From: Acetofilamentum sp.
Lineage (GTDB): Bacteria > Bacteroidota > Bacteroidia > Bacteroidales > JAADGE01
Reading direction: 5' to 3'
Length of the DNA stretch: 47,743 nucleotides
Assembly (NCBI GenBank): GCA_020720665.1
Contig: DYOF01000004.1
Location: 5,820 to 53,562, forward strand
The translations under genes were made by a program, and so were the position numbers. Below the pieces are notes generated by a model, which was given only the letters and a program-made list of their open reading frames with translations, was not told the origin of the DNA and ran no database searches. Below, piece after piece: positions 26,948 through 46,517 of this stretch. Every line of letters begins with the position of its first letter. Position 1 is the first letter of the stretch.

Positions 26948-27141
26948 ATGAAACACCCATAAGAACCCTGAAAGGCTCAGCGAAGCTAAAGAATTTTTAC
27001 ACAAAGGAACATGACTATAAGAATACATTAATTAGGTTTAGTTCAAAAATGGTGTTCCTATCTGCGGAGAATAACAAGCATAATAAATAATGAGTTGGAC
27101 TCAATTTTCAGATTATTAATTAATTATAAATTTTTAGACAG
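26948..27141 (+). repeat. ATGAAA-bounded leader element, copy 1 (diverged)
   Basis: 194-nt copy of a dispersed leader element. It begins ATGAAACACCC and ends AATTTTTAGACAG directly before the ATGAAA start of the barrel gene. Shared blocks with the other copies are the opening, TTTTTACAC, GGAACATGACTA, GGTGTTCCTAT, AACAAGC and the end. From the C after CCTAT to the end it aligns without gaps, 80 nt for 80 nt, with the copies at 46 kb. It carries about 25 extra nt near the 5' end, which stop the small ORF after MKHP. Promoter-like boxes (TAAATTTG at 26899-26906, TATATTTA at 26918-26925) lie just upstream. Confidence 0.85.
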
Positions 27142-27828
27142 ATGAAAAAAATACTTATTTTATCAACAGGATTACTATTTGCATTACAAATTAATGCTCA
27201 AAAGTTTGGTGCAAAAATCGGCTTTAATATGTCCGGAGTTAATTCAAGTACTACCCTCCAAGATTTTCAAACCGCTGCTTTAGAAAACGGACTGCAAGGC
27301 GGTTTTGTATTTGAATTTATGCCGACTAAAATCGGTATAAGAGCAGAAGCATTATATACTCAAAAAGGGTATTCTGTAAATGCTGCAACTGAATTGACCG
27401 ACGGAACTGACATTACAACCGATTTCTCCTTAAATATGGATTATATTGAAGTACCTCTTTTACTTAAATTTAAAATGGGACCGGCATATATTGCGGCAGG
27501 ACCGTATTTCGGTTATGCAATTTCAGGTAAAGAAATTGTATCAATAACATTAGACGGTGAAAAATTGGCAGAAGAACTTTATTCAGATTATGAGAAAGTT
27601 CCCTCCAATGACGTATTTAAATCCGGAGAATTTAATGAAGATAACATTCAATACAAACGAACAGATTACGGGATTAATGCAAGGTTAGGAGTAAAGTTTT
27701 TTAAGTTCTTTGCCGAAGCCGAATACGGTGTCGGGTTAAACAATATTAAAGATTATGAAACAATGCCGGCAGATGAATTTACAAAAAATTATACCATCAG
27801 TTTTTCTCTCGGAATGTTTTTTAATTAA
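27142..27828 (+). CDS. outer-membrane beta-barrel protein
   Basis: Barrel protein of 228 residues. Signal peptide MKKILILSTGLLFALQINAQ, then KFGAKIGFNMSGVNS, the same opening pattern as its neighbours at 26266 and 28091. Strand-rich body, with the C-terminus ending SFSLGMFFN (terminal aromatic region usual for barrels). Unlike its two neighbours it has a leader element fused directly to its start codon. The start codon is fixed by the signal peptide. Confidence 0.87.
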   Translation: MKKILILSTGLLFALQINAQKFGAKIGFNMSGVNSSTTLQDFQTAALENGLQGGFVFEFMPTKIGIRAEALYTQKGYSVNAATELTDGTDITTDFSLNMDYIEVPLLLKFKMGPAYIAAGPYFGYAISGKEIVSITLDGEKLAEELYSDYEKVPSNDVFKSGEFNEDNIQYKRTDYGINARLGVKFFKFFAEAEYGVGLNNIKDYETMPADEFTKNYTISFSLGMFFN

Positions 27829-33639: not shown

Positions 33640-34506
33640 TTAGAAGTGAATCATCATATAAATATTTCCGCCTAAATTATCAGTACCCAAGTCAAATCCT
33701 TCTGATCCGGCAATAGGATGAGTATGAGTGTCTCTTGCATGGGTTGTAAAATCCCAAAATTCATTAGTTACAGAACCTTCTCCTACTGAATTATACATGA
33801 AACCCCAACCGAATTCACCGCCGAAAGAAATATTCGGGAATACAAAATATTCTACACCTACAAACCCGCGTAAACCGGCTCCGAAACCGCCTGCATATTT
33901 TGCTTCGGTTGTTCTGGCTGATGTTGTTGTTGAAATTCCGTTTTCAAAATCAATTGTTGTTGTCGGTATAGAATCGGTTGTACTCATTGCATTACCGTAT
34001 GTATATACAATATTTGTATTACCGCCGAACATTAAATTAACTTCTGCTCCGTAGAATGCTTGCAATCGTCCTTTGCCTCTTCTTAATTCATAACCTATAC
34101 CTAAATTAACTTCTCCGCCTGAAACAACTCTGGTGTCTGTTATCAATGCTTCGGGATCAGTACTGCCGTCGTCTGCAACAAAATTATTTAAAGTTTCGGA
34201 ATTCATATTGATATCAAAACGAGCTCTTACAGCAGCATTATCAGCTAAGAAATATTTTCCGTATATGCTGCTTCCGCTGACAAAATTAAAAGCCATAGGA
34301 TCATTAAATGTATAACCGTTATTGATTTTCATTAAATTACCGGCTAAATTAAATAACGGACCGGCATCTATACCGACAGCAAAATCACCGGCTTGCGGCA
34401 AAATTGATACTCCATGTTTGTTTACAGCATTATTTGTTGTTTCCTCTTGAGAGAACAAATTTGTAGTAAAAAATACAACTGTTAAAATTGTTAATAATTT
34501 TTTCAT
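33640..34506 (-). CDS. outer-membrane beta-barrel protein, unknown
   Basis: Predicted barrel of 288 residues. Signal peptide MKKLLTILTVVFFTTNLFSQ, glycine- and aromatic-rich strands (FGAGLRGFVGVEYFVFP, FGGEFGWGFMYN) and a terminal Phe (IYMMIHF). A histidine-containing loop (HARDTHTHP) near residue 260 could bind metal, but this is only noted. It does not share the KFG-K-GFNMSG opening of the three barrels at 26-28 kb. A copy of the leader element abuts its start codon. Confidence 0.82.
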   Translation of the reverse strand: MKKLLTILTVVFFTTNLFSQEETTNNAVNKHGVSILPQAGDFAVGIDAGPLFNLAGNLMKINNGYTFNDPMAFNFVSGSSIYGKYFLADNAAVRARFDINMNSETLNNFVADDGSTDPEALITDTRVVSGGEVNLGIGYELRRGKGRLQAFYGAEVNLMFGGNTNIVYTYGNAMSTTDSIPTTTIDFENGISTTTSARTTEAKYAGGFGAGLRGFVGVEYFVFPNISFGGEFGWGFMYNSVGEGSVTNEFWDFTTHARDTHTHPIAGSEGFDLGTDNLGGNIYMMIHF

Positions 34507-34674
34507 GTGTCTAAAAATTTGTAAGTAAATTATTTGTAAATTGGATGATTATCCTTATGCAATATGTTTTTTCCCTGCTCACAAGAACATCTAAAAACTC
34601 TGTGTATGTTAGGCAAATTGATTTGTTTTGTCATATTTATTGATGTAAAAAATCGTTTTACCCGGGTGTTTCAT
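34507..34674 (-). repeat. ATGAAA-bounded leader element, copy 2
   Basis: 168-nt copy on the minus strand, from ATGAAACACCCGGGTAAAAC to TTTTTAGACAC, directly joined to the ATGAAA start of the outer-membrane protein gene. It carries a 21-codon ORF (34609-34674) beginning MKHPGKTIFYINKYD. The 5' 31 nt match the copies at 46 kb exactly; the middle differs. TAAATTCG (34702-34709) upstream on the same strand is a likely -7 box, about 28 nt before the element's ATG, a normal leader length for this genome. Confidence 0.88.
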
Positions 34675-42795: not shown

Positions 42796-43193
42796 GGGGT
42801 CGTTCTTGGTTTTGACAGCATGATACCGGATTTGTAAGCATGTCGAGCAATGTTGATAAACTCGTAAAACTTTTCGGCAGACCTATAAACGGCAATAATA
42901 ATAATTATGCTCTCGCAGCGTAACCGAAGTTTAGTAAGTTAATGCTTTATTCTGTACCATGTACAGAACGAGATGTCTCACATAAAGGATTGCCTGATTC
43001 CTTTATGAATTGAGGCACCGATAACATCAGGATAGTTAATTCGGAGCTTTGACGGTTTAATGAAATTTAAGAAGATAAGCATAAATTTTGGGTGCTTTTT
43101 CCCGAGTTTATGATGAAAACTAATAAAAAGATACACATGTAGAAAGCACTTTTGTTACTTGTTTGGACGCGGGTTCGACTCCCGCCGACTCCA
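42796..43193 (+). ncRNA. ssrA: transfer-messenger RNA (tmRNA)
   Basis: tmRNA that rescues stalled ribosomes together with SmpB. The tRNA-like ends pair: GGGGTCG at the 5' end with CGACTCC before the terminal A, with a T-arm GCGGGTTCGACTCCCGC. The tag reading frame runs from GGC at 42891 to the stop TAA at 42921-42923 and encodes GNNNNYALAA, with the NYALAA ending typical of the phylum. Length is 398 nt. The CCA tail is not encoded beyond the first A (ACG follows) and must be added. A terminator-like hairpin follows. Confidence 0.96.
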
Positions 43194-43203
43194 CGTAAAA
43201 TTT

Positions 43204-45556: not shown

Positions 45557-46174
45557 CTATTTCAAAAGTTCGTTAATTATTGACTCCATATATTCTCCTC
45601 CCCAATTATTCGCACCGGTTTCATGCACAATAATTTTTTTATCTTTTGAAATTAAGAAGGTTACCGGAATACTTTGAGAAGCAAAAACACTCGGAGCTTG
45701 ATAATTAGTCGTATAAACAGGAAATGTGTAGCCTTTCTTTTTTATAAATGCTTTTGCTTTTTCCGTATTTCTGTCGTTGGAGATGAGCAAAAAAACAACA
45801 TTCGGGTTTGTTTTGAATTTATCATACAATTTTTGAATACTCGGCATTTCGCCTACACAAGGAGGGCACCATGTTGCCCATTGATTTATGAAAATAACTT
45901 TCCCTTCAAATTCATTTAAGTTTACTGATTTCCCTGATAAGTCATTCAATTCCCAGTTAAAATCACTACTGTCAAGTATAATTTGCTCACCTGAGGTTTT
46001 TAATGAAGGCTCAATTATCATAGATTTGATTCGATTCACAAAACCGCCCACAGCCACTCTGCTGTCGGGAATAAATAAAGCAATAATTAAAGCAATAAAT
46101 ATAACATCAGAAATCTTGCCTAAACGTGTTTTTTTCTTCCAATACGCACTAAACTTTTCTTTTAAACTTTTCAT
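45557..46174 (-). CDS. TlpA-like membrane-anchored thioredoxin
   Basis: Periplasmic thiol-disulfide oxidoreductase of 205 residues. A membrane anchor lies at about residues 20-40 (ISDVIFIALIIALF), and the thioredoxin domain follows. The active site is WCPPC in NQWATWCPPCVGEMPSIQ, and the conserved cis-Pro loop is SIPVTFLI. It probably reduces disulfides for cytochrome maturation or general envelope repair. The start ATGAAA directly abuts a tandem pair of leader elements, giving a leader of more than 340 nt before the coding region. That is the most unusual feature of this gene. Confidence 0.92.
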   Translation of the reverse strand: MKSLKEKFSAYWKKKTRLGKISDVIFIALIIALFIPDSRVAVGGFVNRIKSMIIEPSLKTSGEQIILDSSDFNWELNDLSGKSVNLNEFEGKVIFINQWATWCPPCVGEMPSIQKLYDKFKTNPNVVFLLISNDRNTEKAKAFIKKKGYTFPVYTTNYQAPSVFASQSIPVTFLISKDKKIIVHETGANNWGGEYMESIINELLK

Positions 46175-46345
46175 GTGTCTAAATATTTGTAATTAATTAT
46201 AGTTCTGATAATTGAATGCATATACTTATTTATAACGCTTGTTCTTTCCTGCACATAGGAACACCTTTATAAATCTGCAAGTAAATAATATCTTCCGTTA
46301 GTCATGCTCTTGTGTGTAAAAAATCGTTTTACCCGGGTGTTTCAT
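46175..46345 (-). repeat. ATGAAA-bounded leader element, copy 3 (gene-proximal)
   Basis: 171-nt copy on the minus strand, joined to the ATGAAA of the TlpA gene. Predicted pairings: AACACC with GGTGTT, GTAAAA with TTTTAC, and TTCCT-ATGTGC-AGGAA. It contains the ORF MKHPGKTIFYTQEHD (46298-46345). It is identical to copy 4 in the 91 nt nearest the gene and in the 49 nt at the far end. Its core (46266-46296, 31 nt) differs from that copy. Confidence 0.92.
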
Positions 46346-46517
46346 GTGTCTAAATATTTGTAATTAATTATAGTTCTGATAATTGAATGCATATACTTAT
46401 TTATAACGCTTGTTCTTTCCTGCACATAGGAACACCTCACTTTCTACCAAATGTAATTGAGGTATTCTGTTAGTCATGCTCTTGTGTGTAAAAAATCGTT
46501 TTACCCGGGTGTTTCAT
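46346..46517 (-). repeat. ATGAAA-bounded leader element, copy 4 (distal)
   Basis: 172-nt copy in direct tandem with copy 3, period 171-172 nt. The ORF MKHPGKTIFYTQEHD (46470-46517) is the same. The core (46437-46468, 32 nt) has ACCTCA that can pair with TGAGGT, a pairing absent from copy 3. Upstream lie AAAGGA and TAAATTTG (46549-46556), so the element's ATG sits where a normal gene start would be. Confidence 0.92.

Follow-up and report, generated by a model that had tools for sequence, protein, structure and literature searches.

Very small, probably mobile elements in Bacteroidota whose two ends are complementary to an internal guide and which often lie at start codons

A family of DNA repeats of about 90-200 bases is present at the starts of many unrelated genes in Acetofilamentum sp. 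and recurs in other orders of the same bacterial class. These repeats are best explained, with a probability of roughly three in four, as very small non-autonomous mobile elements that are moved as a folded single strand. An internal guide pairs with both ends of the element on the same strand (left, AACACC with GGTGTT; right, CACATG with TATGTG), each end, AAC... on the left and CA(C/G/T)ATG on the right, being matched by one of two adjacent guide halves. Since the top strand is complementary to both guide halves, a single folded strand could unite the two ends. In the mechanism that we propose, one strand of the element would fold as single-stranded DNA, with the guide holding both ends together with the ATG of the junction or target. 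A single-strand recombinase of HUH type or of another kind, acting in trans, would cut 3' of ATGA at both ends, and the cut strand would be circularised and then inserted 3' of a new ATGA, much as IS200/IS605 elements are at their tetranucleotide. A bolder version is put forward tentatively, and could well be wrong: that minimal elements, the smallest of about 90 bp, occur class-wide, that one guide holds both ends and the ATG of the junction by base pairing, so that the strand defines itself and addresses start codons, and that either the enzyme is neither a Y1 transposase nor a reverse transcriptase or the folded strand has a share in the reaction itself.

In the window, by which we mean the whole stretch of 47,743 nucleotides that was analysed, four copies lie exactly where an earlier note on this DNA had placed them, and all four begin with ATGAAACACC and end with GACA(C/G) immediately 5' of ATGAAA, as was claimed there. 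Copy c1 (194 bp, 26948-27141, plus strand) has its left ATGA at 26948-26951, guide-1 (GGTGTT) at 27051-27056, guide-2 (TATCTG) at 27059-27064 and its right pairing strand (CAGATG) at 27139-27144, and it abuts the start of a 228-aa protein with an outer-membrane beta-barrel domain (27142-27828, plus strand). Copy c2 (168 bp, 34507-34674, minus strand; left ATGA at 34671-34674) is diverged, with a degenerate guide, and adjoins the ATG of an open reading frame of 288 aa without a Pfam match (33640-34506, minus strand). The other two form a tandem on the minus strand, in which c4 (172 bp, 46346-46517) is the upstream member and c3 (171 bp, 46175-46345) abuts the ATGAAA start of the gene for a TlpA-like protein of the redoxin/AhpC-TSA family (205 aa, 45557-46174, minus strand). 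The parts of c4 are the left ATGA (46514-46517), the 5' pairing strand AACACC (46508-46513), guide-1 GGTGTT (46431-46436), guide-2 TATGTG (46423-46428) and the right pairing strand CACATG (46343-46348); those of c3 are guide-1 (46260-46265), guide-2 (46252-46257) and the right pairing strand CACATG (46172-46177), which takes in the ATG of the gene. The similarity of the four copies is not due to chance, since the covariance model R1 matched them, c1 included, with E-values of 6.8e-34, 1.1e-32, 2.5e-22 and 7.3e-18; its training set of 45 sequences includes three of the four, the copy at 26948 being left out. In the region of P2, a small hairpin in the left part of the element, copy c1 is longer by about 25 bp (GAACCCTGAAAGGCTCAGCGAAGCTAAAG or close variants), an addition common to four other copies of the same genome (L080, L107, L113 and L117). 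The window also holds a tmRNA gene at 42796-43196 (Rfam RF00023, 168 bits).

A genome-wide search and a search of relatives, as the earlier note had advised, yielded further copies rather than none. In the own genome (G000, Acetofilamentum sp., 2.6 Mb in 237 contigs; other G-numbers are sampled genomes and L-numbers are loci), BLAST with one copy gave at least 51 matches, 40 of the 181 candidates having been scored, and R1, built from 45 copies and applied at a cut-off of E <= 0.01 with 150 candidates scored per genome, gave 129. Ten of the 14 genomes of the genus had R1 matches (81 in G003, 57 in G004, 17 in G008, 16 in G005, 9 in G013, 4 in G009, 3 each in G001 and G002, and 1 in G012), and G006, G007, G010 and G011 had none. 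These matches were inspected in part, and weak ones may include chance matches, since one of the three in G002 (L075) proved on inspection to contain no element. Six short copies from G002, G009 and G012 were used to build a second model, which had matches in 17 of 247 genomes of the order, or 14 of 244 outside the genus; among 395 genomes sampled across the phylum it identified five carriers that belong to other orders of the class. Compact copies measure 93-99 bp with the right-hand ATGAA counted in. Among 80 loci searched in named records, the sole match was a single copy in a metagenome-assembled genome of Bacteroidales (L138, JAOZQB010000036.1). A long-class copy in G076, from another family (L329), is 93.7% identical to a copy of the own genome and has flanks that match none of the loci compared; it reflects either horizontal transfer or misbinning. 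In the complete genome G232, the left-end pattern with at most one mismatch had 27 matches, and reversed controls had 0 and 1; a right end followed within 300 bp, with no gene between, in 20 of the 27, and the remaining 7 had no convincing right end in the 1.5 kb available. Three loci of this genome (L362, L377 and L379) look like decayed copies. An 18-mer of the left end hit four viral contigs, in all of which the rest of the element was absent, and one compact element searched against phages and plasmids gave no match.

The pairing of the ends with the guide emerges from several treatments of the copies. When 45 copies were folded together with RNAalifold, the right helix, formed by the internal motif and the right end including the AUG, was found unprompted, with double changes at one pair in 17 sequences; 8 of the 45 break or lack it. 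The consensus contained long-range guide pairing only, with no local hairpins and none near the right end. Once the pairing of the left end is included, 96.8% of cells pair, compared with 21-50% when the pairing is slid. In the short class, both helices were predicted exactly in five of six single-sequence folds, and double changes occur in 11 cells of 5 pairs, a number reached in 0 of 500 shuffles; the folding energies of these six had z-scores of -2.37 to 0.28 relative to shuffles, five lying within two standard deviations. An anchor-based test, in which the guide was located by fixed neighbouring bases and the commonest pair of each of 23 genomes was used, parsed 142 of 157 copies; the other 15 did not fit the guide pattern, and some of those parsed pair poorly. 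Left pairing was found at 103 of 115 positions (shuffled mean 85.9) and right pairing at 66 of 69 (shuffled mean 52.3), values reached in 0 of 20,000 shuffles in either case. The left ends and their guides are of the types AACACCC/GGGTGTT, AACATCC/GGATGTT, AACCTCC/GGAGGTT, AACTCCC/GGGAGTT, AATGTCC/GGACATT, AATGCCC/GGGCATT, AACCCAC/GTGGGTT and AACGCCC/GGGCGTT, and the right ends and guides are CACATG/CATGTG, CAGATG/CATCTG, CATATG/CATATG, CTGATG/CATCAG and CGTATG/CATACG. Because eight left and five right types occur across families, each with its matching guide, pairing by chance appears unlikely, with the reservation that the genomes are related and so are not independent. Such compensatory pairing makes the mechanism directly testable, as a change in the guide should change the ends that can be used.

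Unlike G+C-rich hairpins are found between guide-1 and guide-2 in G232 (L354-L356, L361, L366, L374 and others), G458 (L426 and L430), G008 (L390 and L391) and G013 (L398). Their sequences vary by lineage (CCCGAT...ATCGGGACAGG; CTGTCTGCCGACAGGCAGG) and their place of insertion is constant. The proposed fold has a junction at this place and would leave room for a third hairpin there. These hairpins may mark a hotspot for nested insertion or form the third stem of the fold. Some G232 copies (L360, L362, L365, L371 and L379) contain, in their left part, another nested G+C-rich repeat, a longer one (TTCGCCTTCGCGTAGCTTC...-like).

A guide that matches both ends would also be found in an IS110/IS1111-type element with a bridge or seek RNA, and such an element would accord with the failure to see terminal inverted repeats here and with a right end that, by inspection, resembles an outward promoter, which would read into a tandem neighbour. 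Bridge-RNA donor guides, however, pair with opposite strands of the two donor halves, and the two guide halves described here are both complementary to the same strand; this identification is very improbable.

At the junctions, a total of 154 distinct copies or pieces were read in the loci fetched. Copies begin with ATGAAACACC, or a decayed form of it, after unrelated flanks, and mostly end with TTTAGACA(C/G) before ATGA. Once duplicate loci had been removed, 69 right ends of the own genome were followed by ATGA with enough sequence to assess; 11 ran into another copy, 9 were too near a contig end, 2 lay beside Ns and 4 were without ATG (L035, L083, L110 and L111). An open reading frame of at least 60 aa was opened by 66 of the 69, and one of the three short cases (L104) is a tandem copy missed by the filter. 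The nearest in-frame stop upstream of these starts is a median of 6 codons away, as for true starts, and is more than 40 codons away in three cases (L013, L101 and L116). Among relatives in the genus, 33 of 38 right ends, and a further 7 of 7 (L390, L391 and L395-L399), open a frame of at least 60 aa. One site, occupied in two species (L049 and L064), lies inside a gene, four codons before the end of its reading frame. The earlier note had proposed ATGAAA as the junction, which describes the four window copies and fails as a rule for the family: the own-genome junctions read ATGAAA in 56 cases, ATGAAC and ATGAAT in 5 each, and ATGAAG, ATGACT and ATGATT in 1 each, a gene downstream of the element in a relative starts with ATGACC, and what all have in common is ATGA, usually extended to ATGAA. 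Where copies stand in tandem, a single ATGA serves each junction, which bears out the suggestion that the tandem arose by a second insertion into a regenerated target.

The association with starts is strong in most genomes and weak in the complete genome G232. In the order, with the genus and G232 set aside, 18 of 21 non-tandem copies open a frame of at least 60 aa, as do 9 of 12 in other orders of the class. Of the 18 complete non-tandem copies in G232, 10 directly adjoin the start codon of a frame of 96 aa or more and 8 lie at ATGAA sites elsewhere, and because only these 10 are at starts, the location at start codons is a strong tendency and not a rule. In most of the genomes studied, the ATGA of the junction serves as the start codon of a gene, which leaves the coding sequence intact. 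The element can sit even at the starts of basic genes, dnaN, ndk and lpxB in G558, because it lands on a start codon and leaves one behind. By crude calls of open reading frames, ATGAA occurs in the window at 16 starts, at 15 other non-coding places and at 237 coding places, so that tolerance alone would predict about half of the copies at starts; selection would tolerate the element there because its right end retains an ATG for the gene. The excess over this expected half in the genus of the window suggests targeting or benefit as well. The enrichment is best read as insertion at ATGA with strong retention at start codons, and there is possibly a real targeting of start codons in this genus. 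An additional target consensus was rejected: the upstream flanks of 71 insertion sites resemble those of 31 element-free start codons of the window save for some C at -3 and -1, which may be remnants of older copies.

Orthologous genes that are free of the element provide evidence for mobility. Family models named the host genes rdgB, a pepD-type dipeptidase, an OmpH/Skp-like protein, purN and gcvT, and other host genes were named by eye. The pepD gene of the own genome is preceded by two tandem copies, 343 bp in all, and the upstream flank aligns far better with that of 7 of 8 relatives than with shuffles (0 of 1000 each); in these seven (G003, G004, G008, G012, G013 and the named records L138 and L139) the flank is joined to a single ATGAA start, and in G010 the element is absent and the flank does not align. 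At gcvT, which has a copy in G000 and in G003, the site is empty, the aligning flank being joined directly to one start codon, in four of five relatives (G001, G008, G012 and G013; 0 of 1000 shuffles each), the fifth (G005) having neither the element nor an aligning flank. At rdgB the element is absent from all eight relatives, one of which (G011) has a convincing flank alignment (0 of 1000 shuffles) and starts with ATGGAA; the other seven start with ATGAA. Three of three relatives start purN with ATGAC and lack the element, and the own genome reads ATGAA-element-ATGAC, so that the common junction is ATGA at most; the flanks of these three align no better than by chance, and an empty site is not demonstrable there. 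At skp, copies are present in G000 and G003, a remnant resembling a right end in G004 and none in four others, whose flanks are too diverged to align. Comparison of fmt, cinA, ald and hypD with relatives gave no clean empty site. The phosphofructokinase gene pfkA was rejected as an empty-site test, the best matches of relatives being mostly 34-44% identical. The gene concerned, in L078 on C171 of the own genome, carries the element and matches Pfam PFK, and two further PFK-like matches are found on C131; it is possibly an acquired gene.

Many copies before unrelated genes, together with empty orthologous sites whose flanks are collinear, bear out the earlier view of a mobile element. Its proposal that the element targets or duplicates the start codon stands in so far as a junction ATGA(A) is left and the gene keeps a start codon, and falls in so far as ATGAAA was specified. 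A single ATGAAA had been expected in orthologues lacking the element, and pepD and gcvT agree with this; rdgB in G011 (ATGGAA) and fmt in G008 (ATGAGT) and G003 (ATGCAC) do not. The alternative raised at the time was a conserved regulatory leader, which might be riboswitch-like or translational and would be inherited with its genes without moving. An AUG within the right helix, a left ATG frame that mostly begins MK-x-P, a right end that is promoter-like by inspection and sites occupied in two species (the gene of L125/L135 in G003 and G004, and skp in G000 and G003) are features that a leader could have. The host genes are nevertheless unrelated, the number of matches ranges from 0 to 129 within one genus, tandem units and non-start copies occur, and the empty sites with collinear flanks contradict inheritance with the gene; as a primary explanation the leader is unsupported and highly unlikely.

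The reading frames within the element bear on another alternative, in which a MIRU-like repeat is kept at starts since its own reading frame hands ribosomes over to the gene at ATGA. Over 82 copies of G000, the frame closed by the TGA of ATGA runs without a stop for a median of 31 codons, and among right halves of equal length 41 of 59 have no stop in this frame, compared with 1 and 0 of 59 in the other two; the median is 41 codons in G008 and 37 in G013 (3 copies each). It falls to 14 in G003 and to 8 in G004, and the short and compact classes mostly give 0-10 codons, with 19-42 in G012, G151 and L138 (one copy each). Substitution rates at the first, second and third codon positions of this frame are 0.115, 0.137 and 0.100. 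Without a third-position excess, with such short medians in G003, G004 and the short and compact classes, and with the guide left unexplained, ribosome hand-over is unlikely to be the reason for the family. A peptide-coding reading was rejected, the right-half frame having no codon-position bias and the left frame (MKHP...) being frameshifted or stopped early in many copies. As to an internal frame that would overlap the downstream start at ATGA, an ATG-started frame of at least 5 codons occurs in 33 of 157 copies. Some copies have, from the left ATG, a frame no longer than 6 aa in which the fourth residue is proline (MKHP in 37, MKPP in 6, MKLP in 2 and MKCP in 2 of 157); it often reads MKHP-stop, which could slow ribosomes. 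In the tandem pairs L009, L014 and L080 the right halves are 0.98-1.00 identical and the left halves are of different subtypes (0.59-0.75); the copies in the pairs L019, L023 and L028 resemble each other over their whole length, and those in L026 and L078 are unlike in the left and the right half. A polarity of copying was rejected as an explanation for the first three pairs, as gene conversion in the more similar right halves explains them equally well.

For movement as a folded single strand, a candidate enzyme was sought in the carriers. In the order sample Y1_Tnp was found in 15 of 17 carriers and in 155 of 230 genomes without the element, a weak association; within the genus, hits that cover more than 100 profile positions are present in 9 of the 10 carriers and in 0 of the 4 genomes that lack the element, of which G011 has one partial hit. 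The pattern in the genus, together with three parallels to IS608 (PMC5934647), namely a fixed tetranucleotide with insertion on its 3' side, a right end to match and end-guide pairing, would suit an ordinary miniature of the IS200/IS605 kind that is moved in trans by IS200-like Y1 transposases of the host. Yet searches of G082, which has 7 copies, and of G142 gave no Y1_Tnp match, the own genome has a single Y1 hit, a domain of REP type joined to the end of dapF, and a scan of 11 Y1 loci of the genus with the model of the long class and with short patterns detected no element and no element ends. With two guides adjacent in the centre and no subterminal hairpin at the right end, an ordinary miniature of this kind is unlikely. 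An autonomous copy at L036, the own Y1_Tnp hit, was rejected, the nearby element being an internally deleted 78-bp copy at the start of dapF. The fusion itself (L036 370-1830, on C114 of the own genome) is an in-frame product of 486 aa with matches to DAP_epimerase and, barely above the cut-off, to Y1_Tnp, and short repeats (GGATTGTACAATCCCTTTG-like) lie on both sides of it.

A reverse transcriptase was also sought, and an RVT_1 search of G000, G003 and G004, the genomes with the most matches in the genus, found none. Rfam, searched with the window at gathering score and with eight element loci at E up to 5, gave no match on an element. These two results and the non-start copies of G232 weigh against an RNA-level element, in which a transcript would fold, be excised or circularised, and return to DNA at the start codons of messengers via reverse transcription; sense orientation at start codons, one guide that holds both ends, and covariation would be natural features of such an element, which we consider decidedly improbable. 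As for insertion of a DNA strand, in G232, where GC skew places the origin near 2.15 Mb and, uncertainly, the terminus near 0/4.8 Mb, the top strand of the element lies on the lagging-strand template in 14 of 18 copies and in 7 of the 8 that are not at starts. About 64% of coding length is co-oriented and the skew reverses at 4.2-4.4 Mb, and this bias, being confounded by gene orientation and the skew reversal, is only suggestive of single-strand insertion.

In the open-licence literature searched, no description of this family was found. In a group I intron one internal guide positions both ends. The present element differs in its length of about 200 nt or less, in having no Rfam match and in having no homing gene or reverse transcriptase alongside. 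REP repeats are hairpins with a 5' GT(A/G)G foot (PMC6006769), and the REP/TnpA-REP (RAYT) system resembles the present one in its high-copy repeats with single-strand folds and in the REP-type Y1 domain of the own genome. Unlike REP repeats, the elements were not seen to have hairpins with a GT(A/G)G foot, and the Y1 domain belongs to a dapF fusion whose neighbouring short repeats are unrelated.

The IS200/IS605 elements use single-stranded circles, according to PMC6006769. In IS608, as PMC5934647 describes it, the cleavage sites pair with internal guides and insertion is 3' of TTAC. As in IS608 and ISDra2, a fixed tetranucleotide is kept at the left flank and an equivalent site at the right end, and an internal guide pairs with the cleavage site there and with both ends here (PMC5934647, PMC6006769); ATGA stands at left and right as the insertion rule of these elements would have it, purN reading ATGA/A...ATGA/C. 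Unlike IS200/IS605 elements, which have subterminal hairpins at both ends and a guide 5' of each foot, the present elements have no right-end hairpin and on the left only the small P2, have their guides adjacent in the centre with 6-7 bp of pairing per end, occur in carriers from which Y1 is absent (G082 and G142) and have shown no autonomous copy. The parallel appears close in logic; the lack of a right-end hairpin and of a Y1 match in G082 and G142 speaks against membership.

By description, the closest known analogue is the mycobacterial interspersed repetitive unit (MIRU). MIRU form tandem arrays, and Supply et al. reportedly studied them in 1997; we know of no established means by which they move. 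According to PMC12548453 they are short repeats, apparently mobile, which insert at start codons, where the overlap is -4 (ATGA), and affect the gene little. Insertion at start codons with an ATGA overlap is shared by the present family (66 of 69 in G000 and 10 of 18 in G232), which differs from MIRU in its phylum, in guide pairing at both ends and in spanning a class; a long open frame into the ATGA is found mainly in the long class (G000, G008 and G013) and is without coding constraint. The family bears on start-site annotation and on the mapping of leaders in Bacteroidota genomes, it may point to an unrecognised way for mobile DNA to move, and it provides a structural model against which start-codon repeats such as MIRU could be re-examined.
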